NCBI GenBank assembly: GCA_025360125.1
Contig: JANYCU010000012.1
Span: forward strand, 140,117 to 204,116
Length of the DNA stretch: 64,000 bases
DNA from: Armatimonadota bacterium
Lineage (GTDB): Bacteria > Armatimonadota > Fimbriimonadia > Fimbriimonadales > Fimbriimonadaceae
Direction of reading: 5' to 3'
Position numbers and translations under genes: made by a program. The notes under the pieces were generated by a model. That model worked only from the letters and a program-made list of their open reading frames with translations, had not been told where the DNA came from and searched no databases. This document shows, one piece after another, positions 22,255-64,000 of this stretch (position 1 is the first letter of the stretch; each line of letters begins with the position of its first letter).

Positions 22255-22329
22255 GGGCGATTAGCTCAATGGTAGAGCATCTCGTTTACACCGAGAGGGT
22301 TGGGGGTTCGAGCCCCTCATCGCCCACCA
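22255..22329 (+). tRNA. tRNA-Val (anticodon UAC)
   Basis: Complete cloverleaf of 75 bases including encoded CCA: acceptor GGGCGAT/ATCGCCC, D-arm GCTC/GAGC, anticodon stem TCTCG/CGAGA with loop TTTACAC (anticodon TAC), a five-base variable loop, and T-arm GGGGG/CCCTC with TTCGAGC. Its 3' half (from the anticodon stem on) is repeated exactly at the window end, which marks it as the integration site of the element to its right. Confidence 0.97.
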
Positions 22330-22333
22330 CTAT
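22279..22333 (+). repeat. attL: tRNA-Val 3' end, left copy of the direct repeat
   Basis: This 55-bp block starts at the anticodon stem (ATCTCGTTTACACC) and continues four bases past the CCA. The same 55 bases occur at 63946-64000. The base before it differs (C here, T in the right copy), which sets the left limit of identity. The intact tRNA is kept on this side. Confidence 0.95.
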
Positions 22334-22456: not shown

Positions 22457-23590
22457 TCAACGAAAAACTCGATCGAGTGAATCGTGAAGAATTGTTTGTG
22501 CAGTACTTAGTGGCCGCGTATAGTTCGCTTCGGTTACTCCAACGGAGGCGTGGCCGATATGCTCTTTATAAGTCGTGGTTGAGACTTCCGGCATCAGCTT
22601 TTCAATGATGTTCGCGTGTGTTAAGCGACAATCTTGCGGAGTCATTTTTTCCGGAAGTTTTGCATCGTTTCGAATGGTTCTCCACGTTGCGTAGACCAAT
22701 TTCCTCATTCGAGGCTTGTTCTCGAACAAAGCAGGCCATAAAAGGTCCTCAGGTTCCATGTCTTTTGCGTAGTCCCAAAGAATTGCTTTGAGCTTCGAGC
22801 ACATCACCACGTTGCGTGTCTTGTCCTTTTTCGGAAGCTCAACAGTTTGCTTACCCTTTGAATCAATTCGTACCGCCTTATCAATGACGATTAGATCATC
22901 TTCGAATCGGAGTTGCCGTCGAGTCACCGCCATTTGCTCACCGAGCCTTACACCGCCCAGTAGAAGGATTGCAAGCATTGCCCTCCGCTCTGGATCGAGG
23001 TCCTTACATGCCACAGCTTTGCAAACCTCCTTTGGGGTTAGTGCAACTGCAACCCTAGGCGCGGGCCTCGGGACCGGTAGTCGAAACGGATTTGCAACAG
23101 ACATGGGAACTCGCTGATATGGTGAAACGCCCTGATTAAAGACTCGCACAAGATCACTACGAAGCTCCACGAGCGTTGCCTTTCCCACCCCATCAGCAAG
23201 TAGCTTCTTAAACAAGGCACTTACTTTCAACGGGTCAATTCGAACGAGAGGTGTATAGCCAAACGTTTCACGGGCATAATCGTTGAATCGCTGCTTTCTG
23301 CCTTGAATCGTTTTTTCCATTAGATTCCCTTCCCAATCGTTTTCCACCAGCCAATCAAACCAGTCACCGAGGCTTATTCCTCCCACAACCTTAGCCACTT
23401 CTGTTTTTGAACCCCTCTTTAATGACCGGAGAAAGTCGTTGCCATCGGTTTTCGTGTGAAAGGTTCTCGATAGACGCGACTTCCTACCCATGTCGTCTTC
23501 GAACGTGTATTGGACTCGGAACTTGCCCTTCGATGCTCCTTTCAAAATGAGCTTACAACTGCCCTCGTTATTCTCTGCGCGCTTTGCCAT
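22457..23590 (-). CDS. int: Tyrosine-type site-specific integrase
   Basis: A 377-residue phage-type integrase that would catalyse recombination between the tRNA att sites. The N-terminal ~70 residues resemble an arm-binding domain, 75-160 a core-binding SAM-like domain, and 190-377 the catalytic domain. Active-site residues seen: Arg in LLGGVRLGEQMAV, Lys in KKDKTRNV, Arg in QDCRLTHANI (the usual first His is Gln), His in HIGHASVG and the nucleophile Tyr in TEANYTRP. It points towards the tRNA, 127 bases from it, which is the usual layout. A 63-base gap separates it from the putative excisionase. Confidence 0.93.
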   Translation of the reverse strand: MAKRAENNEGSCKLILKGASKGKFRVQYTFEDDMGRKSRLSRTFHTKTDGNDFLRSLKRGSKTEVAKVVGGISLGDWFDWLVENDWEGNLMEKTIQGRKQRFNDYARETFGYTPLVRIDPLKVSALFKKLLADGVGKATLVELRSDLVRVFNQGVSPYQRVPMSVANPFRLPVPRPAPRVAVALTPKEVCKAVACKDLDPERRAMLAILLLGGVRLGEQMAVTRRQLRFEDDLIVIDKAVRIDSKGKQTVELPKKDKTRNVVMCSKLKAILWDYAKDMEPEDLLWPALFENKPRMRKLVYATWRTIRNDAKLPEKMTPQDCRLTHANIIEKLMPEVSTTTYKEHIGHASVGVTEANYTRPLSTAQTILHDSLDRVFR

Positions 23591-41369: not shown

Positions 41370-41374
41370 AAGAA

Positions 41375-41908: not shown

Positions 41909-41940
41909 ACGACCATCGTCTAGCTATTTGGATGATGAGG

Positions 41941-42231: not shown

Positions 42232-42592
42232 GTCGCCCAGGCTAATGCAACTGACGTGGCGAGTAAAATTCTCTCGCATCTACGCAAGCGATTGTAGGCT
42301 CACAATACGTCACAATTCAGGGAGAGGCGCAAGATCGTGGCGGACACATCGCATTCTTGGCCCTCAAGTCTTTGCCGATCGTCCTTCTTTGAAGAATGGC
42401 TTACAATGCAAGTGGTGCTGCTTCAAGTTCATAACCAAACTGTCGTACCGAAATATATCATGCGTAGGCTGCATATACTAGAATACAATTGAGAAGTAGG
42501 GAGTTTGACTTGGCTTTGCAATCAACTTTCTGTCGTCACCAATATTTTCTTGCCCGTATTAACCATGTTTTCTATTCAATTGAGGCTGATCG
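42232..42592. other. Region without a clear gene
   Basis: Only short frames occur. One plus-strand frame ending at 42481 finishes with a Cys-rich stretch (CKWCCFKF, then CVGC), possibly the tail of a lost zinc-ribbon gene. No terminator or clear promoter is seen. Confidence 0.3.
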
Positions 42593-42838
42593 ATGCTTAG
42601 GTTGCGTTGCTACGTATTTGGAAACCTCGTCCGGGAATCTAGTACTCGAGAACTGACCCGCGAAGAGCTCACTTTTTTGGAAAATCACCGGACCGAATGT
42701 GAAGACTGTCGGTATAAGGAAGTCACTTCGAAATGTAGCCTAGATGCGGTCAGACCCATCGATAGCGAGGAACATGTGGGTGGCCCTACCAAAACTCTAT
42801 CTATTTTGGATAATCTTGGGTACAAAATTACTCAATAA
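42593..42838 (+). CDS. Small zinc-finger-like protein, unknown
   Basis: An 81-residue protein with helix TREELTFLENHRTECEDCRY that resembles the HxxxCxxC of anti-sigma-type zinc fingers (His, two Cys; a further Cys at 42 and one at 6). No transmembrane segment follows, unlike real anti-sigma factors. It is isolated between the zinc-ribbon gene and the caspase operon and convergent with the latter. Plausible but unproven gene. Confidence 0.45.
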   Translation: MLRLRCYVFGNLVRESSTRELTREELTFLENHRTECEDCRYKEVTSKCSLDAVRPIDSEEHVGGPTKTLSILDNLGYKITQ

Positions 42839-42943
42839 TGAGCCTGAATATCTCCAGTCGTAATCTCTTATTCTGGGTTCTTGGATCAACTTGACGTTCT
42901 AAATTTTTGGATCAAAGATTGAATAACTTTGGCGGATTGGACC

Positions 42944-45300: not shown

Positions 45301-45301
45301 T

Positions 45302-46786: not shown

Positions 46787-46832
46787 ATTATTCACGTGTC
46801 ATTGAAGTTAGATGATTCTCAGAAGGCTGTTC

Positions 46833-48308: not shown

Positions 48309-48506
48309 TACGAAACATCGTGTGGGCAACGAATTGAAATTTCACGGCTGTTGACAGGAAGCTTTTCGTGCCAACTCTATACTCAACCTAGAAAGGCAAG
48401 GGCACGCTTAACCCATCGATAGGGGCTCACCTGGTGGGAGCATACATTGTTTGTGTGCAAATATTTCTAAGAAAATCTTCAAAATAGGTCCCTTTGTTTG
48501 CCTAGA

Positions 48507-51500
48507 ATGCCATATCCTATTCTTCTGTGTGTGAGGAAGTGGTTGAAGAAAATTTGTAAGTGCGTTGTACTCTGCGCGCACGATGATTGGTGGTTTATTG
48601 CCAAATGTATCGAGGCGGCAAAGGCTTTCGGCCCAATACTCGCCTTCGTCTCCCGAACTTCCTGGAATGGCTCAACCGGCGACTGGCAACTAGTCGTAAA
48701 CGAAGCCGAAAAAGCCGGAGCTGAAGTCATCCTCGGAGATTGGGATAACGAAACTTCCCACCGCCGCCACGCCTACGAAGAAGCCAAAGCTAAAGGCTAC
48801 CGTTACGCCCTCATCCCCGATGGAGACGAAGTCATCGAGACCAAACTCCTCGAAACGTTAACCAAGATCGCCGATGCCCAAATTGCAGAACGGGTCCACG
48901 CCTACATGGACACCTACTGGAAGTCCGCTCGGTACGTTATCCGTCCGCGTGAACAACTCGCCCCCGCAATCCTCATCGACCTCACCCAGGTTGAACATAT
49001 CTACATCCGCGACTTCCAAGGTGGCCGGCCGATTACCCTCGCGCCCGACCATGGCGTCATCCACCATCTCAGCTACGCCGGACCCGACGAGCGCATCCAC
49101 CGCAAGATCACAACCTGGAGCCACAAACACGAGCTCGTCCCAGATTGGTATCACAACGTCTGGCTCAAGTGGGACCAAGACAAGACCCTTCGTGATTTCC
49201 ACCCGACGCATCCACAAGCCTACGGAATGGCCGAACGGATTGAGACTCCCGAAATCCTCAAAGGAATATGGGATGAACGCCCCGTCGCCAATACCAATCC
49301 CGACAAACCGAAAAAATGGCCGACCTTAAGCATCGTCATCCCCCTCCACGGTGGACGAGCGGATATCAAGCAATGCCTTGACAGTCTCGAAAAGTGCCAA
49401 GACCTGATTCACGAACTCATCGTTGTCGATGACGCATCTCCCGATGACGCACCTGAAGAAGCCAAACGAAAGAACGTAGTGCTAGTCGCAAGCGAGGCAA
49501 ACCTGGGCTTCGCCAAAACCTGCAACCGGGGATTCGAAACATCCACCGGCGAAGTCATCCTCTTCCTCAACTCCGACACGATCGTCCCCAGACCCGGTCT
49601 CATCAAACTCATTGAAGGGCTGACCAAATCTGGATCGATTGGAGCCGCTGGACCAATGTCCAACAATGTCGGCTACCACCAGCGCATTCCTCCAACCTAC
49701 ACGAGTCTCGACACCCTTGACAATTTCGCCGCCGACCTTGCCGAAACCCAAACCGAAGACAGGGACGTCGAAATCCTCGTCGGCTTTGCTTTGGCCATCC
49801 GGCGAGCAACTCTCAATGAAGTCGGAGCTTTCGACGAACGATTTCCTGTCGGAATGTTCGAAGACACCGACCTCTGCTACCGCATCGCCCGCGCCGGATA
49901 CCGCTTGCGCATGGTCACAGGAGCCTACGTCCACCATTGGGGATCGCGCACCCTGCAACGGGTCATCCGTGATATGGAAAGTCTGCTTCACCAAAACGGA
50001 GCCATATACCGTGAAAAGTGGCAGTCAGATATCGAATGCGGCTACGCCTCCCACCTACCCGGCTTCAACCTCAACGACGGCCTAGTCAGATTCGATGAAA
50101 CGAGATCACCAGATCGCATAAAGCTGCATTTGGAAGAACTTAAGCAAAGAGCCAACATCTCCCTGTGCATGATTGTCAAGAATGAAGAGCGCGTCCTTAG
50201 CCAATGCCTCGAAAGTGCCAAGCCGTTCTTTAAAGAAATCATCGTGGTCGATACGGGATCAACGGACCGCACCAAAGAGATTGCCCGCGAACACGGCGTC
50301 AAACTCATTGAAAGCACGTGGCCAGATAGTTTCGCCGCTGCCCGTAACGAATCCCTCAGTCACGCCACCGGCGACTGGATTTTCTGGCTCGATGCTGACG
50401 ACGTGTTGCCCTTGCAAAGCGGCGAAGCCATTCTTCACGCCGCGATTAATGCCGGGCCTGAAATCACCGGCTTTATCGTCCCTGTCCAATTCGTCGAAGA
50501 AGGACCGAACGCCGGAACCAAGGTGGACCACGTCAAACTTATTCGCAACTTCCCAGGCATTGAATTTGAAGGCCGTATTCATGAGCAAATCCTCAGTTCT
50601 ATTCGCAAGCACGGCGGCGAAATCGTGCGCCTTAACGCCGTTGTCCTGCACGCTGGGTACGACACCAGCATCAAAGGACAAGCTAAAAAACGAACCCGTG
50701 ACTGGCATCTGTTAAATCTTGACCTCCAAGATCGCCCCAAGCACCCATTCGTCTGGTTCAACATCGGCATGACCCACCACTACACGGGAGGTCATCATGA
50801 AGCGGTCGAGGCGCTGAAGAAGAGCATCCAGTTCGCTGGCGGGCAAGATTCGCACCTTCGCAAAGCATATTCACTTATGGGAGTCTCATACCGTGTACTC
50901 GGCCTACTTGACGAATCCGAACATGCTTTTCAAGAAGGACTCAAAAGGGTCGGCGAAGACCCCGAACTCACCTTCCAGCTAGCGATGACGGAGACAGCGA
51001 AAGGCAATCTCATCGAAGCTAAGCGCCTCTACGAAGACGTCCCCGAAGACACCGGCGAATATTTCAGCAGCATCGATATCGGAATTCTCACCTTCAAGCG
51101 CCTGCACAATCTCGGAGGTATCAAGATGGCGCTTGGCGACTATATCGGCGCCCGAAGGGACTGGACCAATGCTTTCCAATCCAACCCGAGATCTACCATC
51201 AGTCTCATCGCTCTTATCGACGCCGCCCTCGAATATGGTGACCTCAATACAGCCCGAACCGCACTCGAAGACCTGAGCCGCGTTGAAGGATTCTCCATTG
51301 ACTGGGCCGAAAGGAGAGCCAAGCTCGCCGATAGCCTGCAAGAACCGAATGGCGCAATGGGTTGCCTCGACTTCTTCGTCCAAACGAACAGCCACGCAAT
51401 CGGTCCTCGCCTCGTTTTATCGAGAATGCTCCTCGCCAACGAGAAAGCACACCTCGCCGTCCCGCACCTCCAAACGCTTGAGAGGCAAAGTGTTGCCGAA

Positions 51501-52511
51501 GCCGCGTTTATGCTCGGCGTCTATGCACTTCAGAACGGCGACCTAACCAGCGCCCTTCGTTTCACAGAGCGGGCCATCGAACTCAATCCTAGTCATACAC
51601 AAAGCCAACAACAACTCCAAAGTATTCGCGCTCTGATCGATGAGCCAATACCATCAATCCTTAGCGCAGAAGAGCAGAGAAAGCTTCTGATTGGGCCAGA
51701 TGTAGGAACCCTGAGCAAAGCTACCAAAAGGCACTCGATCGTCATCGTCACCTACAACTCAAGAGAGTGGATAACCAAATGCTTAAATACGGTTTTGCCG
51801 ACAATCACTGAAAACGATGAAATTATAATCGTGGACAATGCGTCAATGGATGAAACCATCAAAGCAATTCCAAAGCTTAAACAGCTTAAAGTAATTGCAA
51901 GTAACGAGAATCTTGGTTACGCTCCGGCTGCAAATGTCGGCATTCGCGCCAGCAAAGGCGAGTTCATAACCCTCCTTAATCCCGATACTGAAGTGAGCCC
52001 TGGCTGGTTAGAGGGACTCGCGAGTAGCATCGATGAAACCACCGGCGCGGTTGGCCCAGTCTCCGACAACATCGGCGGAGCCCAGTTCATTGGCCACTAT
52101 CTACAGAGTGGATTTCCAATTCACCAATTACAGGCAGAAATGAAGCGCCGGTACGAAGATCAAACCGTGGATACCAAGCTAATCATGGGAATGTGTTGTA
52201 TGGTTCGTCGCGAAGTCTTTAACGAGTCAGGATTGCTCGATGAAGGGCTGTTTTTAGGTGCGGACGACCTCGAACATTCGTGGCGGCTAAAGAAACTCGG
52301 CTACAAACTCACGATCGCGCTTGATGTCTTTGTGCATCACGCTGGACAGAAGAGTTTCGAAACTCGCGATAGGTCTGAAGTTGCAGACCTCGTGACGAAG
52401 AGCGACACACACTTGAAAGAAAAACTGTCCAAGTTTTACGGTGACCGTCAACTCACCTCTCACCAGCTTTGGAGTTGCAACATATTCGATGAAGCGCTAC
52501 AAAGGGTTTGA
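48507..52511 (+). CDS. Giant multi-domain glycosyltransferase (three GT2 modules with TPR)
   Basis: About 1334 residues. The first 270 residues are a GT2-related module (VVLCAHDDWWF, ALIPDGDEV). Full GT-A domains follow: ~275-510 (LSIVIPLHGGRADIKQCLDS, VVDDASPDD, FLNSDT, a late EDTDLCYRIARAGY), ~545-770 (SLCMIVKNEERVLSQCLESA, VVDTGSTDRT, WLDADD), and ~1080-1330 (IVIVTYNSREWITKCLNTVL, VDNASMDET, LLNPDTE). Between the last two lie TPR-like helices (~760-1040). The start could also be TTG 48543. It would build or attach a glycan in several steps. The stretch 48600-51650 is richer in GC-ending codons than the gene ends or its neighbours. Confidence 0.87.
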   Translation: MPYPILLCVRKWLKKICKCVVLCAHDDWWFIAKCIEAAKAFGPILAFVSRTSWNGSTGDWQLVVNEAEKAGAEVILGDWDNETSHRRHAYEEAKAKGYRYALIPDGDEVIETKLLETLTKIADAQIAERVHAYMDTYWKSARYVIRPREQLAPAILIDLTQVEHIYIRDFQGGRPITLAPDHGVIHHLSYAGPDERIHRKITTWSHKHELVPDWYHNVWLKWDQDKTLRDFHPTHPQAYGMAERIETPEILKGIWDERPVANTNPDKPKKWPTLSIVIPLHGGRADIKQCLDSLEKCQDLIHELIVVDDASPDDAPEEAKRKNVVLVASEANLGFAKTCNRGFETSTGEVILFLNSDTIVPRPGLIKLIEGLTKSGSIGAAGPMSNNVGYHQRIPPTYTSLDTLDNFAADLAETQTEDRDVEILVGFALAIRRATLNEVGAFDERFPVGMFEDTDLCYRIARAGYRLRMVTGAYVHHWGSRTLQRVIRDMESLLHQNGAIYREKWQSDIECGYASHLPGFNLNDGLVRFDETRSPDRIKLHLEELKQRANISLCMIVKNEERVLSQCLESAKPFFKEIIVVDTGSTDRTKEIAREHGVKLIESTWPDSFAAARNESLSHATGDWIFWLDADDVLPLQSGEAILHAAINAGPEITGFIVPVQFVEEGPNAGTKVDHVKLIRNFPGIEFEGRIHEQILSSIRKHGGEIVRLNAVVLHAGYDTSIKGQAKKRTRDWHLLNLDLQDRPKHPFVWFNIGMTHHYTGGHHEAVEALKKSIQFAGGQDSHLRKAYSLMGVSYRVLGLLDESEHAFQEGLKRVGEDPELTFQLAMTETAKGNLIEAKRLYEDVPEDTGEYFSSIDIGILTFKRLHNLGGIKMALGDYIGARRDWTNAFQSNPRSTISLIALIDAALEYGDLNTARTALEDLSRVEGFSIDWAERRAKLADSLQEPNGAMGCLDFFVQTNSHAIGPRLVLSRMLLANEKAHLAVPHLQTLERQSVAEAAFMLGVYALQNGDLTSALRFTERAIELNPSHTQSQQQLQSIRALIDEPIPSILSAEEQRKLLIGPDVGTLSKATKRHSIVIVTYNSREWITKCLNTVLPTITENDEIIIVDNASMDETIKAIPKLKQLKVIASNENLGYAPAANVGIRASKGEFITLLNPDTEVSPGWLEGLASSIDETTGAVGPVSDNIGGAQFIGHYLQSGFPIHQLQAEMKRRYEDQTVDTKLIMGMCCMVRREVFNESGLLDEGLFLGADDLEHSWRLKKLGYKLTIALDVFVHHAGQKSFETRDRSEVADLVTKSDTHLKEKLSKFYGDRQLTSHQLWSCNIFDEALQRV

Positions 52512-52606: not shown

Positions 52607-52963
52607 ATGACTTTCTCGGATCGTGTTCAGGATCACGTTGTCAATCAAAGAAATCGCGGGGAATTGCCAGGCGCAAACAGGGTTGGCCTAGCGGGTACTC
52701 CCGGCGACGGACCTTACGTTAAAATTTGGCTGAGAACCGATGACGACAAGATTCTCAAAGCGTCGTATGACACGAACGGCTGCCCAAGTTCTATTGGCTG
52801 CTCCAGTGCTTTGTGCGAATTGGCAATAGGGCGAGACATGAATAATATGAAATTACTGGAACCAAGGGAGCTGGAATTGTTTCTTGGCGGACTACCAGAA
52901 GGCAAAGGTTACTACGCCGCGCTCGCGATTAACGCCCTTCGAAGTGCAATGGGACAAACGTAA
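52607..52963 (+). CDS. IscU/NifU-type iron-sulfur scaffold-like protein
   Basis: A 118-residue protein with the NifU_N/IscU pattern: VKIWLRTDDDKILKASYDTN, GCPSSIGCSSALCELAIG with conserved Cys and a Ser/Ala-rich helix, then GLPEGKGYYAALAINALRSA. Scaffolds hold nascent Fe-S clusters with three Cys and an Asp; here Cys in NGCPSS and ALCE are visible, and the C-terminal third Cys of IscU is absent. A TATAAT lies 20 bases upstream of the ATG (52582-52587) with AGGAAA after it. No cysteine desulfurase is nearby, so the role on the island is unclear. Confidence 0.75.
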   Translation: MTFSDRVQDHVVNQRNRGELPGANRVGLAGTPGDGPYVKIWLRTDDDKILKASYDTNGCPSSIGCSSALCELAIGRDMNNMKLLEPRELELFLGGLPEGKGYYAALAINALRSAMGQT

Positions 52964-53241: not shown

Positions 53242-53499
53242 CTATGGTTTCCTTCTTAGCAACCTAACCATGGTCACAACTGCGGCAACACACATACAGA
53301 ACGCTATAAACTCCACGAAATAGACATAAGGCGGATGATAGGCAGACATCAAATGTCCCGGACGATTAGGATCGGGCCTGTCCATCCCTGTGCCAAGAAC
53401 GAACGGAACTACGTAACTTAGATCCAACAAGATCCACAACGCAATTCCGGTCAATACTATGCAGCAAATCACTCCAGCAGACTTAGTTATTGATTTCAT
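53242..53499 (-). CDS. Small two-helix membrane protein (immunity candidate)
   Basis: An 85-residue protein with an N-terminal hydrophobic helix (AGVICCIVLTGIALWILLDL), a polar loop rich in Pro and Tyr (about 35-57), and a second helix (YFVEFIAFCMCVAAVVTMV) ending in RLLRRKP. It lies nine bases downstream of the RHS tip gene, in the same direction. Small membrane proteins right after RHS C-terminal domains are often immunity proteins. No family is recognised, so that role is inferred from position. Confidence 0.55.
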   Translation of the reverse strand: MKSITKSAGVICCIVLTGIALWILLDLSYVVPFVLGTGMDRPDPNRPGHLMSAYHPPYVYFVEFIAFCMCVAAVVTMVRLLRRKP

Positions 53500-53508: not shown

Positions 53509-54465
53509 TTACCTAAGATAAGGTAATTCATCCAAAATACACCCTGCCAAAGCATCACCATGATCTGGATTATTCCCTTCGCCGCAACAATGCATTAGTT
53601 CATGTAAAATAGTCATTTCTATTGCATATAACTTGTGTAAAGCGCAAGCCGGATATACGCAAGTGGCTGAGACTTGACCGATGCAAAACCATCCACCCTT
53701 TTTACAAATGGTGTCGACTGATTCGTTGCAAATATGTATAACACAAAGTGGCCCCCAGCCAGGAGGATCTGTATATGCGCAGTTGGCACCGCGGCCACAA
53801 CCATACCAGGAAGAATTGCAGGTAATCTCAACTTTGTGTTTAGCAGAGGTGGAAGTACACTTGTTCAAGATGCAGTCATACATATCTTGGGCTTTCTTGG
53901 CGGTTCCCAGCTCGCCTTGCATGCATTTTAGGGCTCGATTATAGTTCCACGGGTGAGCTTTAACTTTGTCAGCTGCATCGCACGCAGCCTTTTGCCCGCC
54001 GTCAAGTGATATTGGTGGCGGAGCCTTAACGGCCTTGCCGCCCTTGCAGGCTTCGCACGGACACTCGTAAGTGACCTTTATGGTATTTCCAGTAGGATCT
54101 GAAAGAGCGGTAGGCCGACTCTGGACATATACATATGCCTTTTCCGCTGGCCAGTAGCTATCAATTGATGTCCATAAGGCATTGGTATCATTATAGTGCC
54201 GCGCTCTAACGTAATGAGTCGATGCTTTGAGATTTGAACTACGATATCCCAAAGTTCCCATCCAACCGAACGAACCTCTTGACCCCGAAGACCAGAGAGA
54301 ATTGCCATAGGGTCTATATCTTCCGTCAAAGGTTTTGTTAGCTCCAGTTTGGTCAATTTCAGCGGTGACGGAACCAAGACTGTCGGTAAGGAAGTCCTTT
54401 CGGCCGCTGGCATCTTTGTAGCCAATCATCTGGCCGTCGATCGTGTAGTAATTGGTTGTTGGCAT
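53509..54465 (-). CDS. Separate RHS C-terminal cistron with zinc-protease motif
   Basis: A 318-residue protein from ATG 54465, which has AGGAG six bases upstream and starts two bases after the RHS stop. The first ~125 residues are the end of an RHS/YD core (YYTIDGQMIGYKDASGRKDF, DSLGSV, YVRARHYND). The remainder is a distinct Cys-rich domain with about 17 Cys and HELMHCCGEGNNPDH at 288-302, an HExxHxxG zinc motif with a later His as possible third ligand. It is likely a secreted metalloprotease-like toxin tip. A longer in-frame start at 54504 overlaps the upstream gene and lacks such a ribosome site. Confidence 0.8.
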   Translation of the reverse strand: MPTTNYYTIDGQMIGYKDASGRKDFLTDSLGSVTAEIDQTGANKTFDGRYRPYGNSLWSSGSRGSFGWMGTLGYRSSNLKASTHYVRARHYNDTNALWTSIDSYWPAEKAYVYVQSRPTALSDPTGNTIKVTYECPCEACKGGKAVKAPPPISLDGGQKAACDAADKVKAHPWNYNRALKCMQGELGTAKKAQDMYDCILNKCTSTSAKHKVEITCNSSWYGCGRGANCAYTDPPGWGPLCVIHICNESVDTICKKGGWFCIGQVSATCVYPACALHKLYAIEMTILHELMHCCGEGNNPDHGDALAGCILDELPYLR

Positions 54466-54467
54466 TG

Positions 54468-57400
54468 TTAGCTCCTGCCTTGCAAAAAGTCGCTTCCATC
54501 CCATACAAGAGTGGTAATTCCCGCTCCCTGCTGCTCAGTTCTCTTTAGTCCATCGGGTTCGTAAGTCATAGTTGTGAGGGTCGAATTGAAGATATGGACA
54601 ACCAGTCGGTTTTCCTGGTCGTAAACCATCGTAACAAATGGTGATCCTCTTCTGTCACTTACGTCATCCGTATGAATCACCGTATTGTTTCCATCACCGC
54701 TGTAGGTATAAGTGGAAATTAGATTAATGGTCCTGCTGGTTATAATTTGGCCCGCTGGATTATATACGATGGTAGTCGGGCCATCTTCGTTTGTAAACGT
54801 CCGGTTGTCCACCGCATCGTAACTGTAGGTGTAGAATGCGCCTGTCTGATAGAAGAATGCCGATATTAGCCTGTACTTATTGTCATAACCGTAAACTGTA
54901 AGTTCGCCATTACCATCGAAGATTTGAAGCGGATTACCGATGTTATCATAAGTGTAGGTAAGTCGTTGCCAATCAGAACCACTTGGTTGGAAGTCTTCCA
55001 TCTTCGTTATTCTGGAATTCGCATCGTAGGACTTGGCACGAATGATTCCAGACTGAAAGATTAGAGTCGTCTGACGAGAATATTGGTCGTATTGGAAGGT
55101 GGTTTTCACGCCACCTGGATCGACGAATGTCGTTGTTCGTCCAAGGGCATCGAAGGAAAATGTCCTGACGCCACCATCGGGATCCTTGAGCGACGTTCGC
55201 TGATTCACCGCATCGTAAGTGTAAGCCTGACTCAGCAAACCCGGGTCAGTCTTGCCGGTTAAATTTCCATTCAGGTCATATGTATAGGTAGTTGTTCCCG
55301 TATAATTGATGGCCGACGTTGGAAGGCCGACGCTATCGTATGAATGCGTTATGAGTGATCCATCTGCAAATTTGATGATAGTTTGCTGTCCAACAGGGTC
55401 GTACATGAAACTTGTCACGACGCCACTGTGTTGTTGCTTCGTTAGCCTTCTGCCATTTGCATCGTAGCCATAGGATGTAACACTTCCAATTTCATTGGAA
55501 ATAGCGGTTACTCTACTATTCGCATCGTAAATCATCGTAATGAGATTACCGAGTGCATTTTGCAGCCCCACTTGCCTGCCAATGGCATCGTACGTGGTGG
55601 TCGTTCGGAAGCCGAAGGAATCAATACTTGCCATCGCGCGACCTAGAGCAGTGTAAACCGTTGAAGTGATATTGCCATTGGCATCAGTGACTGCAATTTT
55701 GCTACCGCGAACATCATATGCAAATGACGACATCAGGCCAAGTGCATCTTGCGCTGAAATCGTTTGCCCAGCACCATCGTAAACGGTTGTCGACAAGAAA
55801 CCAAGAGGAGACAGTAAGGCAATTGGTCGGTTTGCTGCATCGTAAATCTTTGATGAAATTTCGCCCAATGAATTAGTAAACGCTGTCACTCGACCGTCTG
55901 CATCATATGTGTAGCTCGAAACTAAGTTCAGGGCACTTTGAGAGGTCTTGCGCCGCCCAGCCAGGTCATAAGTCGATGACGAAAGGTAGCCCCGAGCGTC
56001 TTGAACGGCAATTGTCTGACCTGCCACATCATAGAAATAACTTGTGATGAAGCCCTTGGGGTTAATACTGGACGACGCAAGATTCAAATTAGCTTGATAA
56101 ATCGTAGTCCAAACAAAATTCAGGCCATCTTGAGTGGTAAGTTTTGCACCAGAAAGGTTGTAAGTGTAACTTGTGGCATACCCAAGTGCATCGACATTCG
56201 CAATTACCTGACTGGCCCCGTCATAAACCGTTGTTTGAACGAAGCCTAGCGGAGAAGTGCTCGCTACTATTCGGCCCAAGGCGTCGTACGTTTGTGTAGT
56301 TCGGTTACCGAGGGCATCTTGAATTGCAACTACATCGCGCGCATTGTAGATCGTTGTAGCTAGGTCACCAAGGGCATTTTGAACACCGTTTGGCCTTCCC
56401 GAGGAGTCATATGAGTAACTCGTGAAATAACCGAGTGCGTCCTGGCTCGCGACTTTCTGTTTTGCGTAATTATAAACAGTGGTGTTAATTCGTCCGAGCG
56501 GGTCAATCGTCGCCGTCTTTTCGCCCATGCTGTCGAAGACAAAGGTCCAGATGCTTCCAAGTGGGTCTTTGCTGGTCAGAATATTGCCAAATCGGTCATA
56601 GGTCAGTGTGGTCCTAAAACCCATCGGTGTTACGTTTGCTACTTGAAGGCAAGAATCGTAAACCAAAGTGGCAACCGCATCGAAAGGATTCATTTCCGAA
56701 ATTAGATTCCCGCCAACATCGTAGGAGTAGCTGGTGATATAACCGAGCGGATTTGTTTTCGCTATCATGTTTCCGAGTGAGTCGTAAGCCATGGTGAAAA
56801 TACCACCATCTGAATCTAATTGGGCAATTCTATTTCCAAAAGAGTCGTATTGGAAAGTAGTGAGTAATCCACGTGGATCCTGACCTACAAGCTCTTGGCC
56901 AATGGAGTCATAGGAAACAGTTGCCCTCCTCCCTAATGGATCAACCGACGCTACACGCCTCATCTTGGTGTCATAAATGCTCGTCCATACGTTGCCAAGC
57001 GCATCGATCTGTGTGGTGAGATTCCCTACAGAGTCATACTGGAAGGTAGTGCGATTTCCAAGCGGATCATCAGAAACGAGCACCCTGCCCGAGCTGTCAA
57101 ATACTCTGCTTTCAATTGTCCCGTACGGCACAATGGTTTTCGTACGGTTTCGCAGCAGATCGTAGGTATACGTGACCGTATATCCCTCTGGCAACTGCCT
57201 ATTGATCAGATTTCCAATCCCGTCGTAAATTAGAGTAGTTAAAGCATTTCTGGGAGATTGAATCACGGTCAGGCCTGTTGCATATGAATAAGTCCATGCC
57301 GCACTTCCAGCAGTCACCTGGCTCACCCTTCCTGCTCCATCGTAACTGTAATCTGTTCGATAACCTCGCGGGTCTTCAACGGCAGTAACAATATTTCCGG

Positions 57401-58103
57401 AAACGGAATATTTCGTTTGGCAACCAGACGGAACCATGAAGGTGGTGAGGTTTCTTGCGGAATCATATTGCATTGTCCAAACTCGTCCACCCCAATCTTG
57501 AACACTCGAAAGCAATGACGTTGGCAAACTTGCGGCATATGCAAATGTCAAAAGCCTTCCTGCGGGCTCCATAATTGTCTTCAGCAATCCCAATTCCGCA
57601 CCAGAGCCGTAAGTAAACGTCTGGGCATTGCCGCTCGAGTCGTAGACACTGGCAACCTTGAGCGTTGCTGGACTACCGCTGCCAACTTGGTCTACATACC
57701 GAGCGACAGAGCCGTCGATCATTCGCTCAGTGAACACCGTTCCGTCATAGGTCAACGTCGAGCCACAAACTGGGGCACTAACAGGCGTATATGTGTTTAA
57801 CCCTGAAACGGAACTCACCAAAGTGAAAGCGTAATTTGAAAAATCTCCTCGAACGAGCGTAACAACGCCATATCCAACTTGCGAAACTATGTTCGCGGCT
57901 GCGGTGGCAGATCGTCCAAAGCCAAACTCAAGGTCAGAGGTGCTTTCGGTGCTGTAGAAAAATTGAACGGTGAGTCCAAATCCCTGGGCTTTTAGACTTA
58001 TTTCGGGGTCTATGCGAAGCTCACCAGTATAGGGATCAGGCGTAGGATGATATGGGTGGTCTGATCCCCCAAAAACTGCCCCCGGCGATGAGTCGTACTT
58101 CAT
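54468..58103 (-). CDS. RHS/YD-repeat protein core
   Basis: A 1211-residue protein built from about 40 YD-type repeats (for example YDSFGNRIAQLDSDGG, YDALGRIVASTSPLG). Such proteins wrap into a beta-cocoon around a C-terminal toxin domain. The N-terminus (HPTPDPYTGELRIDPEISLK) lacks a signal peptide or a PAAR domain. It stops at WDGSDFLQ-GRS, exactly where normal RHS proteins run on into their core motif; that motif is in the next cistron. Two GT9 genes, a Hint protein and an HldD gene lie upstream in the same direction, after a 257-base gap. Confidence 0.9.
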   Translation of the reverse strand: MKYDSSPGAVFGGSDHPYHPTPDPYTGELRIDPEISLKAQGFGLTVQFFYSTESTSDLEFGFGRSATAAANIVSQVGYGVVTLVRGDFSNYAFTLVSSVSGLNTYTPVSAPVCGSTLTYDGTVFTERMIDGSVARYVDQVGSGSPATLKVASVYDSSGNAQTFTYGSGAELGLLKTIMEPAGRLLTFAYAASLPTSLLSSVQDWGGRVWTMQYDSARNLTTFMVPSGCQTKYSVSGNIVTAVEDPRGYRTDYSYDGAGRVSQVTAGSAAWTYSYATGLTVIQSPRNALTTLIYDGIGNLINRQLPEGYTVTYTYDLLRNRTKTIVPYGTIESRVFDSSGRVLVSDDPLGNRTTFQYDSVGNLTTQIDALGNVWTSIYDTKMRRVASVDPLGRRATVSYDSIGQELVGQDPRGLLTTFQYDSFGNRIAQLDSDGGIFTMAYDSLGNMIAKTNPLGYITSYSYDVGGNLISEMNPFDAVATLVYDSCLQVANVTPMGFRTTLTYDRFGNILTSKDPLGSIWTFVFDSMGEKTATIDPLGRINTTVYNYAKQKVASQDALGYFTSYSYDSSGRPNGVQNALGDLATTIYNARDVVAIQDALGNRTTQTYDALGRIVASTSPLGFVQTTVYDGASQVIANVDALGYATSYTYNLSGAKLTTQDGLNFVWTTIYQANLNLASSSINPKGFITSYFYDVAGQTIAVQDARGYLSSSTYDLAGRRKTSQSALNLVSSYTYDADGRVTAFTNSLGEISSKIYDAANRPIALLSPLGFLSTTVYDGAGQTISAQDALGLMSSFAYDVRGSKIAVTDANGNITSTVYTALGRAMASIDSFGFRTTTTYDAIGRQVGLQNALGNLITMIYDANSRVTAISNEIGSVTSYGYDANGRRLTKQQHSGVVTSFMYDPVGQQTIIKFADGSLITHSYDSVGLPTSAINYTGTTTYTYDLNGNLTGKTDPGLLSQAYTYDAVNQRTSLKDPDGGVRTFSFDALGRTTTFVDPGGVKTTFQYDQYSRQTTLIFQSGIIRAKSYDANSRITKMEDFQPSGSDWQRLTYTYDNIGNPLQIFDGNGELTVYGYDNKYRLISAFFYQTGAFYTYSYDAVDNRTFTNEDGPTTIVYNPAGQIITSRTINLISTYTYSGDGNNTVIHTDDVSDRRGSPFVTMVYDQENRLVVHIFNSTLTTMTYEPDGLKRTEQQGAGITTLVWDGSDFLQGRS

Positions 58104-58359: not shown

Positions 58360-59382
58360 TTACGAAGCTGGGGCAGCCTGAACGTTGCCATTTGATCTTC
58401 CCTCCGACATCTGCAATAGAGGCTTATCAAATGCCAAATACAACTCAATGGCCTCAATAACATGTCTAGCCTCGATTAAATCTAAACATCGTGGAAGAAT
58501 GCGTCCAGAGTTGGTCTTTACAGGCCTAAGACAAAGGCTATTATCTTGTTCGGAGCCGTCGCCCAAGAATGTAATTCGACTTTTCCAACAGCCACCGTTG
58601 TCGCAGCAGGCCAAACTTCCGTTGGTGTGAAGGTATTGATGGTGTGGATATGCTTCCCATTGGGAGGGTTCGCGCCCGCCTGCGACAACCACACATGGAC
58701 GATTCTTGGGCCTTCCGGGCTTTGTTTCCACAGCAGCCGCCATGTGCATGAACATCGTGACTGGACAAACAACGCCATCGGAATTATAGACAAGCCTCAC
58801 GGCTTGCCGAAGGTCCGTTTTTCCACACAAATTAATTACATTTTTAAGAGCAGGATGAGTGTGTCCCTCATCGCCAGATCCTGCTTGAACAAAAAGAATT
58901 CTGTCCTTAAAGTGATCGACTACTTCCTGGCAACGATCTGGGTCCCACCACTTGGCAGTAAAATCGGACTTTCCGCCACTGACAATGATCCAGAATTTGG
59001 TTTCCGGCCTTCCCATAATTTCGTCGACTTGGGAGAGCCAACCTTTCTCTTCCTCTCGCAAGTGAATGTCTCCTTTAAACTCGTGAGCCTTAATATCTAC
59101 GCCCAGCTTCTCGCTAAGGAATAAGCGGAATCCGTGAATAAAATGGTAAGGGCTGGTATTACTCTGATGGATCAACGGATATTCGCATTGAATATCCTCG
59201 ACATCAGAGTCACCTTCGGCAAGCTCTGTAATATATGGGTTGTTTTCCCATAATTGCCCGCACGATGTTCGCACATCCGTTTGAAATTGGTCTGGGAAAG
59301 TAAAATGCAGATCGCGCACGGCGGCAGTAAGCATTACTACATCCCCTGGTGACAGAGAATTCCTTAGGATTAATTTTCTCAC
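58360..59382 (-). CDS. GT9-family (heptosyltransferase-like) protein
   Basis: A 340-residue protein with the GT9/heptosyltransferase plan: LRNSLSPGDVVMLTAAVRDL at the start (SxGDxxxxTxAxR), FWIIVSGGKSDFTAKWWDPD in the middle, and VCPVTMFMHMAAAV for the acceptor or sugar-nucleotide site. The C-terminal part carries LACCDNGGCWKSR then SLCLRP and PRCLDLI, a Cys-rich section similar to the iron-binding finger known from heptosyltransferases of autotransporters (TibC/AAH class). That similarity is from memory. It is 18 bases from the upstream GT9-methyltransferase gene. Confidence 0.82.
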   Translation of the reverse strand: MRKLILRNSLSPGDVVMLTAAVRDLHFTFPDQFQTDVRTSCGQLWENNPYITELAEGDSDVEDIQCEYPLIHQSNTSPYHFIHGFRLFLSEKLGVDIKAHEFKGDIHLREEEKGWLSQVDEIMGRPETKFWIIVSGGKSDFTAKWWDPDRCQEVVDHFKDRILFVQAGSGDEGHTHPALKNVINLCGKTDLRQAVRLVYNSDGVVCPVTMFMHMAAAVETKPGRPKNRPCVVVAGGREPSQWEAYPHHQYLHTNGSLACCDNGGCWKSRITFLGDGSEQDNSLCLRPVKTNSGRILPRCLDLIEARHVIEAIELYLAFDKPLLQMSEGRSNGNVQAAPAS

Positions 59383-59400
59383 TTCAGTATCGCATTCATT

Positions 59401-60975
59401 CTACAACCTTACACAAATCGTTTGGTATCCTGAATGAAGAATCTTCCATCCGTTCTCTAGCAACCATGGCACGGCAAGCGTGCCCTTCCCCGTAAACTTC
59501 TTAGCTCTGTATGGCGTGTCATCGAATATAACTATCGAATTTTCATGGAGAGCATGAAGTGCAGCCGTGACCTCATTGAGTGCGTGCTGCTCATGTCCAG
59601 GAATTTCGGTGTCCATACTGTCAATGAGCAGAATATCTATTTTCGACTTGAATTTGGCGAGGAAATCAACAGAATCTCCGTGCGTGATACTGACTCCTCT
59701 TAGTTCACGAGTGGCACTTCTTGCAAAGGCGCAGTTCTCAAAATTGTTGTCCACCGAATGGAGTTCACCGCCGGTTCGATGCGCAACGGTCCCAAGCAAA
59801 TAAGTTGAATAGCCAGCTCCACGCCAATCTTCTTCACCGCGGATGCACCCAGTTTCAACGATGACAGGTCGGTCAAACCTCTTTAAAACCTCTTTAATAA
59901 GTTTGTCGAAACCAAGATGTCGGTCGATATATTGAGAAAGGGAATTTCCGTGTCCCCTTTCCCAGTCAAGGACAAACTGCTGAAGCTGCATGTCCGCTCC
60001 TAACTGATCAGATGCCAAATACCTCGGTCCGCTCAACATCTGGGCGGCAACATCGGCAATAAAACTTGGTTCAAACCCGTTGTAGCCTGGACTCTCCACA
60101 ATATTAAAGAGAATTCTAGTTTTCTTGTTTAGCTCATGGGTTATGCCATGAGGAACAATGTTCACCGTGCGCCCTCTCGGAAGAGAAACGCGCCCTGGAT
60201 ACTTAGTTAGGCTTGGATACAGGCCAACAACAGGTATATCAGTCAGCCGAGACAAATGAAGGGGGCCACTGTCGACGCTGATAAGGAGGTCACATTGCTG
60301 GAAGAGCGCGAGGAGAGTTGTGACGTCAATCCACTTCCAGTCGTCAACCATGTGGCGGACTCTCCAGTTCGCCATCCTAGCTACCCGGTTGTCCCAGTCA
60401 AGAAGTACGAGGGTGCCACCAATTCGATCAAGTAACTGTCGATAGAGTTCTATTGCGGTGTCTTCTGGGATGTTCTTCTGGTCTGGAGAAGTGTTGCCCA
60501 TCGAATGAATCAAAACTATCGGTTTTGGAAGATCTTCTAGAAAATCAGCTACCGATTTTCGCGACTCATCGATAATCCACGGGCTCACATCGATTTTAGT
60601 GGAATAAAGCTCTTCCCAAAGTTCTTCACTTGTTCCTATGGCTGGCAAGGGAGATCCCGTTACGTTTATGCCTACTTTGTTGTACAGCCAGTACTGATCC
60701 GCCGTTTCAATAGACGGGTCGGGAGACTCGCAGAAGTACACATATTGGAGATTCGGATGATCGACTGGTATGCGAGCGACGCCTTGGGCTGAAAAAGCGG
60801 CGGCCTTGTCGTCGGCGCAGTGTAAGTTAATTCGATATCCTCGTCGCTTGTAGAGTTCAAGAACATGGGCAAAATTTGCACAATCGCCGAGCCCATGGTC
60901 AAACCATAGATTCAGCTCCATCGATTTGTCATCATCCTTCGATGCAATTTCGCCAGATTTCGGTTCCACATTCAT
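59401..60975 (-). CDS. GT9-like domain fused to a class I methyltransferase
   Basis: A 524-residue fusion. Residues 1-330 are GT9-like: WFDHGLGDCANFAHVLELY, PIVLIHSMGNTSPDQKNIPE, LISVDSGPLHLSRLTDIPVV. Residues ~360-524 form an S-adenosylmethionine-type methyltransferase of the Methyltransf_24/cephalosporin hydroxylase-like kind: VIVETGCIRG, LHSVDNNFENC, DILLIDSMDTE, IVIFDDTPY. It may attach a sugar and methylate it. A 140-base gap separates it from the Hint gene upstream, 18 bases from the GT9 gene downstream. Confidence 0.8.
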   Translation of the reverse strand: MNVEPKSGEIASKDDDKSMELNLWFDHGLGDCANFAHVLELYKRRGYRINLHCADDKAAAFSAQGVARIPVDHPNLQYVYFCESPDPSIETADQYWLYNKVGINVTGSPLPAIGTSEELWEELYSTKIDVSPWIIDESRKSVADFLEDLPKPIVLIHSMGNTSPDQKNIPEDTAIELYRQLLDRIGGTLVLLDWDNRVARMANWRVRHMVDDWKWIDVTTLLALFQQCDLLISVDSGPLHLSRLTDIPVVGLYPSLTKYPGRVSLPRGRTVNIVPHGITHELNKKTRILFNIVESPGYNGFEPSFIADVAAQMLSGPRYLASDQLGADMQLQQFVLDWERGHGNSLSQYIDRHLGFDKLIKEVLKRFDRPVIVETGCIRGEEDWRGAGYSTYLLGTVAHRTGGELHSVDNNFENCAFARSATRELRGVSITHGDSVDFLAKFKSKIDILLIDSMDTEIPGHEQHALNEVTAALHALHENSIVIFDDTPYRAKKFTGKGTLAVPWLLENGWKILHSGYQTICVRL

Positions 60976-61115: not shown

Positions 61116-61979
61116 CTAGCCCGTATTTGCTGCTGCGCTGCTTGAAATAGGCTGGATCTTGTTGTGGTGGAGAATTCCGTTTGCAAAATAGACATGCTGC
61201 GGCTCACAAGTCCATCCGAAAACTTGAGCATGGCCCGCGTCTTCGATCGAAATGACCCTGATGGCATTTCCTAGCTCATCGACAAGCATGTGCACTTCCA
61301 AATCAAAGTCCTTTATGACCATTTGTTCACCCAAATGATTGATCAGTTCATGAGAATCCGAGCACGTAAATTCTCCCTTTTCGTGGACCACTCGAAGACA
61401 TGGTTGGACTGAGCTGAAAACGTCTACTACTTTTTGTCTTGAATCGCCAGTCACGGACGGCCCGACAAGCAAATCTCCGATGCTGATTTCATATGCAAGC
61501 TTACAGTCATTTTGCCAGAGCCTAACCTTGGCATTTCCGACAAGGCAAGAAGAAGATGAGGAAGATGATGATGACTTTGAAGAACTAGGCGAACCGGAAG
61601 AACTTGAACCGGACGAACCGGACGAACCGGACGAACCAGACGAGTTTGATGTATCTGACGACGCGCTGGTCGAACTTAAGGAGAAACCGGAACTTTGAGA
61701 CTGCCCGGAACTCTGCGATTGCTGGGAAGACGATGTCTCGCTAGATGCTGAAGACTGATGTGAGGACGAAGATGAAGAACTGCTTCCACCACAATCCACA
61801 GGCGGGCATCCGTCGTCGCCGGGCATTGGCAAAGGACTCTTCTGCCCCGGCGTACAACCGTCGCAACAGGAATCACCACCAGTTCCGGTTCCACCCCCCG
61901 ACAGAATTGAGTAAGGCCCCGACCTCGTTTGGCTTGCTCCAAAATTATTCATTTTATTCACTCGACTACTTTTCGGCAC
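61116..61979 (-). CDS. Ser-rich protein with C-terminal Hint (intein-like) domain
   Basis: A 287-residue protein in three parts: a Gly/Cys/Pro-rich head (1-65), a Ser-dominated linker (66-144, mostly Ser with Gly, Gln and Thr), then a Hint domain (145-273) opening with Cys145 in CLVGNAKVRLW, with DSHELI in the middle and ending FANGILHHN. Cys at the first position, the penultimate His and the final Asn273 are the residues needed for thioester formation and cleavage. The next residue is Lys274, so full protein splicing is unlikely; this fits the bacterial intein-like (BIL) class. Heptose-type sugar genes lie on both sides. Confidence 0.85.
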   Translation of the reverse strand: MPKSSRVNKMNNFGASQTRSGPYSILSGGGTGTGGDSCCDGCTPGQKSPLPMPGDDGCPPVDCGGSSSSSSSSHQSSASSETSSSQQSQSSGQSQSSGFSLSSTSASSDTSNSSGSSGSSGSSGSSSSGSPSSSKSSSSSSSSSCLVGNAKVRLWQNDCKLAYEISIGDLLVGPSVTGDSRQKVVDVFSSVQPCLRVVHEKGEFTCSDSHELINHLGEQMVIKDFDLEVHMLVDELGNAIRVISIEDAGHAQVFGWTCEPQHVYFANGILHHNKIQPISSSAAANTG

Positions 61980-62177
61980 GCCCCTACATCAATATACCGT
62001 TCGATTATACGACGAATATTCTTCGAAGTGAGCAAACTTAGGGATGATTTTCTGGCCATCTATGTTGTTCTCATGATTTTGTCGATTACGAATACTGCTG
62101 GACGAACTCGCTCAAGGGGCATCTCGCCTGCGGCTATCGTGGCGATTACATGAGATTCGGATCATAAATTTGTATCT

Positions 62178-63128
62178 TCAACTGTGATCTTTCCGCAAAG
62201 CCATTACAAAGTTGTGTATGCCTTGCTCAAGTGTATAGAAATCTTGTTCGTAGCCCAACTTTCGAAGTTTCGAAGTATCCGCCCTTAGATTCGTTTGATA
62301 TTTGCCTTCCATTTCCTTGGGGAATTCCATATATTCGATGTGACCCGCACCTGCTTCTCCAATTATTACATTTGCCAGTTCGTTCCATGTTCGGTCAACG
62401 CCGGTGCCCGCGTTGACTATCTCCTGAATCGAGTCCTTTTCGTAAAAAAAGAGATTGATGTCCACGAGGTTTTTGACTGAAACAAAGTCCCTTCGCTGTT
62501 CGCCCGGCCCAAACTCGCCATACGCGCCGAAGATCTTGGCAACACCAATCTTATGAACTTGGTCGTAAAGTTGATGGACCATAGAGGACATTTTCCCCTT
62601 GTAGGACTCTCCAATTCCGTATGCATTGAAGTAGCGCAAGCCAACCACGGTGGATTCAATCCTTGGTATAAGTGACCTCACGTACCGGTCAAAAAGGACT
62701 TTGGATTCTCCGTAAATATTAAGACTTGACTCCAGGCCATCATCTTCAATTCCAATTTGTCTGTTGCCATATACAGCTGCGCTGGATGCATATATGAAGG
62801 GAATTCGGTGATCTGTTGCAAAATGAAGGAGGGCTTTCGAGTATTCAAAATTGTTATGGAGCATATAATCCTCGTTGGTCTCAAGAGTATTCGTACAAGC
62901 CCCCTGGTGAAAGATGACATCTACCTCTGAACCGTGAATGCTTTTGCCAAGCTGGAGGAGAAAAGCGCTCTTGTTGACATAATCGCGATACTTTGCCCCT
63001 GTAATATTTTTATGCTTTTGAGTGCCTTCGATGTTGTCGATGATCAGGATATCTTCAGCACCCCGCGAATTTAATTCACGAAGAAGATTGCTTCCTACAA
63101 ATCCAGCCCCGCCGGTCAGAATGATCAT
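62178..63128 (-). CDS. hldD: ADP-L-glycero-D-manno-heptose 6-epimerase-like (HldD)
   Basis: Interconverts the C6 epimers of ADP-heptose, the donor for heptosyltransferases. The 316-residue short-chain dehydrogenase-type protein has TGGAGFVGSNLL for NADP, FHQGACTNTLETNEDYMLHNNF (family-specific), Ser in YASSAAVYG, the Tyr-Lys pair in YGESKVLFD and GLRYFNAYG. Length fits HldD closely. Its order before the Hint gene and two GT9 genes suggests one sugar pathway. HldE or GmhA are not in the window, so precursors must come from elsewhere in the genome. Confidence 0.9.
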   Translation of the reverse strand: MIILTGGAGFVGSNLLRELNSRGAEDILIIDNIEGTQKHKNITGAKYRDYVNKSAFLLQLGKSIHGSEVDVIFHQGACTNTLETNEDYMLHNNFEYSKALLHFATDHRIPFIYASSAAVYGNRQIGIEDDGLESSLNIYGESKVLFDRYVRSLIPRIESTVVGLRYFNAYGIGESYKGKMSSMVHQLYDQVHKIGVAKIFGAYGEFGPGEQRRDFVSVKNLVDINLFFYEKDSIQEIVNAGTGVDRTWNELANVIIGEAGAGHIEYMEFPKEMEGKYQTNLRADTSKLRKLGYEQDFYTLEQGIHNFVMALRKDHS

Positions 63129-63434
63129 TAGGCACTTTCTCCTGCGCGGCCCCGGCGCAACCGGTCCACCTTTGATGGACCTTGGATCAGTTCCCTATCA
63201 GACAGACGTGGACAAACATTAGGGTGTTCACGGCGCTTCGGTATTCGCGAGTGTGGATAAGTTTTCAAGTTTTTGTGCCTTGGCGTGAAAAACGTACGGA
63301 TTATCTGAGTTAAGACGAGATTGTGGAATATTGTACCAAGCTGACTCGACAAATTCTGGGCCCAAATTAATAGGAATTTGCTACGGCACAATCAATCCTC
63401 TCCCTTGCCTCAAATATAGAAAGCACTGGTGAAG
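63129..63434. other. Region without a clear gene
   Basis: Lies between hldD and the decayed methyltransferase. Short frames only; an 87-codon minus-strand frame is basic and not protein-like. It probably holds the promoter of hldD (minus strand), but no sharp consensus is visible. Confidence 0.35.
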
Positions 63435-63855
63435 TTAAGTCTTGCGAACAGCGGCCTGCATTTCCCCAGATTGCTGAACCAGGAAACCAAACGTCTCGGC
63501 GGCCTCGAGCAGGGCCCCCTTAACTCCAGGACAATTTTGCCACTCACAATCATCGAAGATCATAATCCCGCATTGAACGAGGCGTGGCAAAAAAAATCGA
63601 TTGCGTCACTTGTGGTTTCATAGAAGTCGCCGTCTACATGAACAAAGCAGAATTGGGAGTTGCCTAGTTCATCTGCAACTGTCCGGGAATCCAGCCAGTT
63701 TTACTTTAAGGCTATGCCTTTCAGCTTGTCCAACGTGAAATTTTGCTTGAAGAGTCGTGGATTTGTTTTTTTGACGGTTCTGCTGCTCGGTGAGGTTCTT
63801 GCCTAAAAGGTGTTCCGAAGCCATTCGGCAACCAGCGCCCCGAACTTTTCTAAGA
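63435..63855 (-). pseudogene. Decayed class I methyltransferase (TylF-like)
   Basis: Read in three frames, the minus strand gives one family: GALVAEWLRNTF, then a frame with LQAKFHVGQAERHSLKVKLA, GFPDS, then TVADELGNSQFCFVHVDGDF, TTSDAIDFF, then after a run of eight T PRLVQCGIMIFDDCEWQNCP, GVKGALLEAAETFG, ending at TAA 63435. This is the TylF/macrocin-type methyltransferase pattern (HVDxDxYE, FDDCxW, PGVK). Several indels break it, one in the homopolymer near 63590. It ends about 90 bases inside the right att repeat. Confidence 0.65.
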
Positions 63856-63945: not shown

Positions 63946-64000
63946 ATCTCGTTTACACCGAGAGGGTTGGGGGTTCGAGCCCCTCATCGCCCACCACTAT
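63946..64000 (+). repeat. attR: right copy of the tRNA-Val direct repeat
   Basis: Identical to 22279-22333 over all 55 bases up to the window end (the true repeat could be longer). It starts at the anticodon stem, so the 5' half of the tRNA is missing and this copy is not a functional tRNA. Confidence 0.95.

Follow-up and report, generated by a model that had tools for sequence, protein, structure and literature searches.

A Hint domain is fused to a small Gly/Cys/Pro-rich peptide of an RHS operon in an Armatimonadota genome of 4.1 Mb, within the 64,000-nucleotide stretch of DNA analysed here (the window), which forms the end of its contig (positions 140117-204116). The Hint protein is read as an RHS-operon peptide that is predicted to cut itself, is likely glycosylated by a giant glycosyltransferase with GT2 domains and TPRs (GT2-TPR), and serves a likely RHS toxin; this combined reading is given about an even chance. 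Four of its parts are directly observed: the fusion itself, the motifs of the Hint, a gene order that recurs (GT2-TPR, NifU-like protein, peptide or Hint-peptide, RHS core, RHS tip) and the position of the Hint Cys1 at the last Cys of the peptide, the last of these in an alignment of selected sequences. The features of the locus are listed in Table 1.

Table 1. Features of the Hint-peptide/RHS locus and of the element around it (window coordinates).
Feature	Coordinates	Strand	Description
Left 55-bp repeat in tRNA-Val 3′ end	22279..22333	+	likely att site
Tyrosine integrase	22457..23590	-	of integrative element
Giant GT2-TPR glycosyltransferase	48498..52511	+	1337 aa, several GT2 domains and TPRs
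NifU-like protein	52607..52963	+	118 aa, single-invariant-Cys type
85-aa ORF after RHS tip	53242..53499	-	hydrophobic by eye; candidate immunity gene, judged by its place
Separate RHS tip ORF	53509..54504	-	331 aa, overlaps core end; C-terminal HExxH motif (read by eye)
RHS core	54468..58103	-	1211 aa, 21 RHS-repeat matches
GT9 protein	58360..59382	-	340 aa; PF01075 36.1 bits (cut-off 22)
GT9 domain + Methyltransf_24 protein	59401..60975	-	524 aa; PF01075 31.5 (cut-off 22), PF13578 45 (cut-off 26.3)
Hint-fused RHS-operon peptide	61116..61979	-	287 aa, GTG start; likely start ATG at 61952
N-terminal Gly/Cys/Pro-rich peptide part	61785..61952	-	56 aa, 5 Cys, residues 10-65
Ser tract	61548..61784	-	residues 66-144; possible sugar acceptor
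Hint domain	61161..61547	-	Cys145-Asn273; Cys1, C-S-x-x-H block B, C-terminal HHN
C-terminal tail	61116..61160	-	residues 274-287, from Lys274; no Ser/Thr/Cys at +1
HldD, ADP-glyceromanno-heptose 6-epimerase	62178..63128	-	TIGR02197 338.1 bits (cut-off 274.6)
Right copy of 55-bp repeat	63946..64000	+	perfect repeat, at very end of contig

Judging by the repeats at tRNA-Val and the mobility genes, an integrative element of ~41.7 kb most likely carries the Hint locus as cargo. Between the repeats are found the tyrosine integrase, relaxase- and coupling-protein-like genes, a serine recombinase and ArdC, among others. A phage structural role for the Hint protein was considered and dropped: a comparison of 26 ORFs with Pfam returned the relaxase- and coupling-protein-like genes, no capsid or tail match, and one phage-type lysozyme. 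The region 31951-46795 is likely defence cargo, with a TIR protein (PDC-S66 and ThsB-like matches), Mrr-like and caspase-like genes and an adjoining alpha/beta hydrolase. The element also carries a RimK-like ATP-grasp ligase (35115-36260), and positions 63429-63700 on the minus strand look by eye like a decayed methyltransferase fragment.

The ATG nine residues into the Hint-peptide ORF fits the starts of the Hint relatives better than the GTG does, and the N-terminal part that follows it is the apparent counterpart of the peptides that precede RHS genes in Hint-less loci. The preliminary description had reported a Ser-rich tract right before Cys1, and such a tract of 79 aa, 53 of them Ser, indeed ends at Cys145 of a full Hint; the remainder comprises seven Gly, six Gln, three Thr and ten residues of other kinds. 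Ser is encoded by all six of its codons (13/11/10/10/6/3), and one (GGT TCG TCC) mini-repeat occurs inside the tract. The N-terminal parts of the eight other Hint-peptide proteins contain 8-19% Ser, and the poly-Ser tract is special to the window copy among the nine. Its role as a sugar acceptor is plausible, since a relative of protein and peptide glycosyltransferases, the GT2-TPR protein, is part of the recurring module.

The assignment of an intein-class Hint with catalytic motifs, likewise made in the preliminary description, holds by both profile and structural model. As a single sequence, the Hint part gave no relative at E<=0.001 in a protein search and a weak match to PF14890 (E 0.019, under its cut-off), and a profile built from seven Hint relatives matched the gp41-1 intein over positions 2-129 with an E-value of 7e-17. 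The Hint part of an AlphaFold2 model of the protein is mostly above pLDDT 85, with residues 7-21 and 23-142 below 50, and structure matches to the model are BIL2 of BUBL1 (6.4e-10) and gp41-1 (TM 0.85 by target length). Across seven aligned Hints, Cys1 and the block-B His are present in all and the C-terminal His-Asn in six, the penultimate His being absent from the Hint of genome G075; the window copy has every motif, including the HN-K ending noted earlier (H272-N273-K274). The residue at +1 is Lys274 in the window and Thr in genome G091. Because splicing inteins need Ser, Thr or Cys at the first position of the C-extein, the window Hint is expected to cleave and not to splice. Self-cleavage is a fair prediction for a Hint of the intein class that has kept its catalytic motifs.

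Close relatives of this Hint (E<=1e-8) were found in six of 290 other genomes of the phylum, and in all six the genes for GT2-TPR, NifU-like protein, Hint protein and RHS core follow one another in that order and in the same direction. A profile search of the phylum genomes recovered the same seven Hints at E<=2e-44, the next match appearing only at 1.5e-13. Eleven loci with these weaker matches (E 1.5e-13 and weaker) were inspected: seven are Hints behind an RHS end, three (L039, L040 and L052) have the Hint in a shorter ORF, and one has no ORF across the match. Two further Hint proteins of metagenome origin, P0125 and P0126, were found in a large protein collection; P0126 lacks a Ser tract and shares 39% identity with the window Hint. 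Viral contigs gave no match for the Hint or the NifU-like protein.

The module extends well beyond the Hint-bearing genomes. The RHS N-terminal part was found at 91 places in 58 of 291 genomes, six of these places being in the window's own genome. Sixty-six related stretches (3-20 kb) were fetched, in which local tblastn located 70 RHS places, so that 71 were examined with the window. Among the 67 stretches, window included, a NifU-like gene (E<1e-8) is present in 58, GT2-TPR matches (E<1e-20) in 42 and an RHS tip in 44, many stretches ending at contig ends, including many of the 25 in which GT2-TPR was undetected. NifU-like genes themselves occupy 59 places in 42 of 85 genomes of the family, and an RHS start lies at most 2 kb downstream at 47 of them. 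The window copy is among the other 12, and its module parts are kept in a rearranged form: two GT9 genes lie between the Hint and RHS genes, while the GT2-TPR and NifU-like genes are on the plus strand and converge on the RHS block. Endolysin-type release, suggested by a GH108 gene before GT2-TPR, was dropped as a candidate, GH108 occurring in one of the 67 stretches, the window's own; in L028, an Amidase_3 is found at that place.

In Hint-less loci, the place of the Hint protein is occupied by a short Gly/Cys/Pro-rich ORF, with 45 credible cases. These were drawn from the 70 RHS places outside the window, after 15 had been skipped (12 without a NifU-like gene within 1.5 kb and three without an ORF), six had been assigned to Hint (L030 counted among them) and four had scored low. 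The number of Cys is odd in 39 of the 45 peptides, with five in 24 of them, as in the N-terminal part of the window protein, and seven in 10, and is even in six (binomial p 5e-7); the choice of peptides favours Gly/Cys/Pro-rich frames, which inflates Cys numbers but should not determine whether they are odd or even. The excess persisted after thinning (34 of 40, p 8e-6), and NifU-like proteins, taken as a parity control, gave 35 odd and 25 even counts. A Cys lies within 13 residues of the C-terminal end in 40/45 peptides (shuffle mean 27.7, maximum 35, 0/500 as high), and Cys-Pro is enriched (37/45, against a shuffle mean of 27.0 and a maximum of 36). The sublancin-type GCG[GS] site is unenriched, occurring in six of the 45 peptides, a number reached by 44 of 500 shuffles.

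When seven Hint proteins and eight hand-chosen Hint-less peptides were aligned, all 15 rows placed Cys1 of the Hint and the final Cys of the peptides in one column, and the Hint therefore seems to substitute the peptide end from its last Cys onward. In the Hint forms, the number of Cys before Cys1 is odd in only six of nine. A scan of the genome collection with two peptide patterns, narrow enough that its hits say nothing on absence from other phyla, returned nine loci, from three Fimbriimonadaceae, one Armatimonadetes, two Chthonomonas, one bacterium and two archaea. The archaeal locus of Methanolobus is next to a cysteine-desulfurase-like gene and was set aside as an ordinary scaffold. A record titled Methanoregulaceae archaeon (L154, JADZEW010000024.1) is likely a mislabelled or mixed bin.

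The RHS proteins are likely toxins, carrying the traits of RHS polymorphic toxins in their RHS repeats, a variable C-terminal tip and a small ORF after the tip; the C-terminal part of the window's tip ORF is the likely toxin part. Core and tip could be scored as split or fused at 45 of the 71 RHS places. The tip is an ORF of its own, starting 15-57 bases after the core stop, at 27 places, and forms one ORF with the core at 12; at the remaining six the distance is longer (200-2638 bases), and these may be broken cores. Arrays of four or five tips are found in some loci. Tandem arrays with near-identical starts and different ends, most then followed by a small ORF, are located at L028:3-6351, L030:10936-16910 and L027:14145-16283, small ORFs after tips being found in L028 and L030, and such arrays would provide one core with several exchangeable tips. 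In genome G134 (L109:1500-17800), three tandem RHS genes with an identical N-terminal part and different ends stand behind one peptide gene and one NifU-like gene.

The best solved relatives of the GT2-TPR protein are GmaR (E 2.6e-27) and SunS (3e-20), which match a region at about 50148-50831 (residues about 551-778) in which the DAD and HE regions align. The NifU-like family, examined in 60 rows, has one invariant Cys in all of them and the third ligand Cys in 22, the first being replaced in the rows shown, and thus departs from the usual three-ligand-Cys set of Fe-S scaffolds. An invariant Lys accompanies the single invariant Cys in this RHS-tied NifU_N family.

Under the preferred reading, the peptide would probably first be glycosylated by the GmaR/SunS-like GT2-TPR protein and then go on to serve the presumed RHS toxin. 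An odd count of Cys, in most cases five or seven, would leave a single Cys modified or linking while the others pair up in disulfides, as in glycocins, and the Ser tract would supply the window copy with many more O-sites. The Hint would cut itself off after the Ser tract, with Cys1 forming a thioester at the peptide end that is then hydrolysed or transferred to another nucleophile, and a step at Asn273 would release the tail. HldD and the GT9 pair would be add-ons of the element, possibly placing heptose on the same protein. A fuller and more speculative version, held to be somewhat improbable, is that the RHS toxins of Armatimonadota come with a glycocin-like glycopeptide of their own: the GT2-TPR protein would add sugar to the odd-Cys peptide, the single-Cys NifU-like protein would handle it, and its last Cys would attach it either to the cell surface or to the RHS shell, the Hint of some loci taking over this Cys and turning the link into a self-made, Hedgehog-style thioester ligation and the window adding a poly-Ser glycan brush.

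The preliminary description had instead centred on heptose. An HldD gene upstream and GT9 and GT9-methyltransferase genes downstream, all in the same direction, were confirmed by family matches above cut-off, with the GT9 genes at 58360-60975, outside the interval 61116-63128 to which the set had been assigned. In an element-specific heptosylation, HldD would make the donor, the two GT9 proteins would decorate the Ser tract in the manner of TibC/AAH, and the Hint would free the decorated piece. TibC/AAH heptosyltransferases modify autotransporters and form a dodecamer with an iron finger. Six co-directional genes run from HldD to the RHS tip, or seven with the 85-aa ORF, and the Ser tract occurs in the sole copy with GT9 and HldD neighbours. 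Since no second HldD match at E<=1e-30 exists in the genome, HldD and the GT9 pair may add a heptose specific to the element to the peptide of the window copy. A kinase-domain relative is also present in the genome (301.8 bits, under the cut-off of 345), which says little because that kinase family matches in 14 of 14 control genomes and exceeds the cut-off in two. Against heptosylation as the main account, relatives of GT9, GT9-methyltransferase and HldD were found in 0/66 related stretches, the six Hint ones included (tblastn E<=1e-4), a lack of co-occurrence that the preliminary description had itself named as refuting; the set of Hint, GT9 and HldD is thus not supported as the system. The family of the GT9 protein is also very common, numbering 3,715 proteins at E<=1e-5, of which the best 119 besides itself are 63-77% identical. 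The GT9 protein matched no solved structure at E<=1, in a search that missed every other GT9 structure as well and so bears weakly on kinship with TibC/AAH. This account is considered unlikely.

The position of the peptide immediately before RHS, its C-terminal Cys bias, and the separate, adjoining ORFs for RHS core and tip would suit a structural role, in which the Gly/Cys-rich peptide caps the RHS shell, anchors it or helps to export it, held by disulfides or the Cys1 thioester, while glycosylation is irrelevant to it and the GT2-TPR protein makes a surface glycan. Such a role leaves unexplained why a GT2-TPR protein with a GmaR/SunS-like domain keeps company with the peptide, and it too is judged improbable. 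More doubtful still is that a mobile BIL-like Hint landed on the peptide as a relic or passenger and that the Ser tract is functionless slippage. The mini-repeat in the tract would fit this, as would the presence of a Hint at just 7 of the 71 RHS places and the four changes of the Hint label on an RHS tree (70 rows, quick method), at least two of them forced by well-supported branches. Yet the catalytic motifs are retained at 21-30% identity to the window Hint, the six Ser codons are mixed in the tract, and the label changes are few compared with shuffled labels (mean 6.8, one of 500 shuffles as low); the Hint label is clustered on the tree, yet appears to have been gained or lost more than once.

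An accessory module of this kind around RHS genes was not found in the open-licence PMC literature searched, where no paper was found that joins Hint, Rhs, glycosyltransferase and NifU, that treats an RHS toxin of Armatimonadetes, or that concerns a NifU-like protein with an Rhs toxin operon or a glycine-rich Hint with an Rhs polymorphic toxin. In that literature, glycocin with Rhs gave nothing beyond a Lactobacillus bacteriocin survey, and bacterial intein-like with Hint and Rhs nothing beyond a MafB paper; 'Rhs' is absent from the main text of the Fimbriimonas ginsengisoli genome paper (PMC4072686). If true, the Hint-peptide reading would unite Hint self-processing, SunS/GmaR-type peptide glycosylation and RHS assembly with exchangeable tips, a combination not found in the literature searched. 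It would also give a first lead on the assembly or export of RHS toxins in Armatimonadota, and glycopeptides that end in a thioester would have a natural source. The odd Cys number, the C-terminal Cys and the operon order are statistical signs that make the proposal directly testable.

Glycocins such as sublancin, pallidocin and thermoglycocin are small Cys-rich peptides (five or seven Cys) whose neighbour is a GT2 related to SunS and bearing helical repeats, as in the RHS module. Characterised glycocins have five Cys and two disulfides (PMC6405829), and a seven-Cys glycocin forms three disulfides and carries sugar on both Ser and Cys (PMC12457901). In Cys count and in enzyme the resemblance is real. 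In contrast to glycocins, the RHS-module peptide lies in an RHS operon, has a C-terminal Cys and shows no GCG[GS] enrichment, and the window has no C39 transporter, the one C39 peptidase match in its genome being on another contig. With transporter and sublancin motif missing, the peptide is better said to work like a glycocin than to be one. GmaR, a flagellin glycosyltransferase and the best solved match of the window GT2-TPR, has the GT2 region in common, whereas in the window this region is one part of a protein of 1337 aa that has TPRs and several GT2 domains and is encoded beside RHS genes. In IscU/NifU scaffolds, three Cys act as Fe-S ligands; the NifU_N Pfam family matched above cut-off in the three NifU-like relatives scanned, but the RHS-linked family keeps one Cys instead of three. 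TcB/TcC toxin shells, whose core and C-terminal tip are made as separate polypeptides, resemble the RHS places described here, some of which differ in carrying arrays of tips. The RHS pretoxin HINT (PF07591) also occurs near RHS proteins, but sits after the RHS part in one chain, whereas the window Hint belongs to a separate small upstream protein. Finally, the window Hint has its fold, Cys1, block-B His and C-terminal His-Asn in common with BIL/Hint domains, the gp41-1 intein and BIL2 of BUBL1, and differs from them in being joined to a Gly/Cys-rich RHS-operon peptide and in belonging to a separate protein encoded before the RHS gene.
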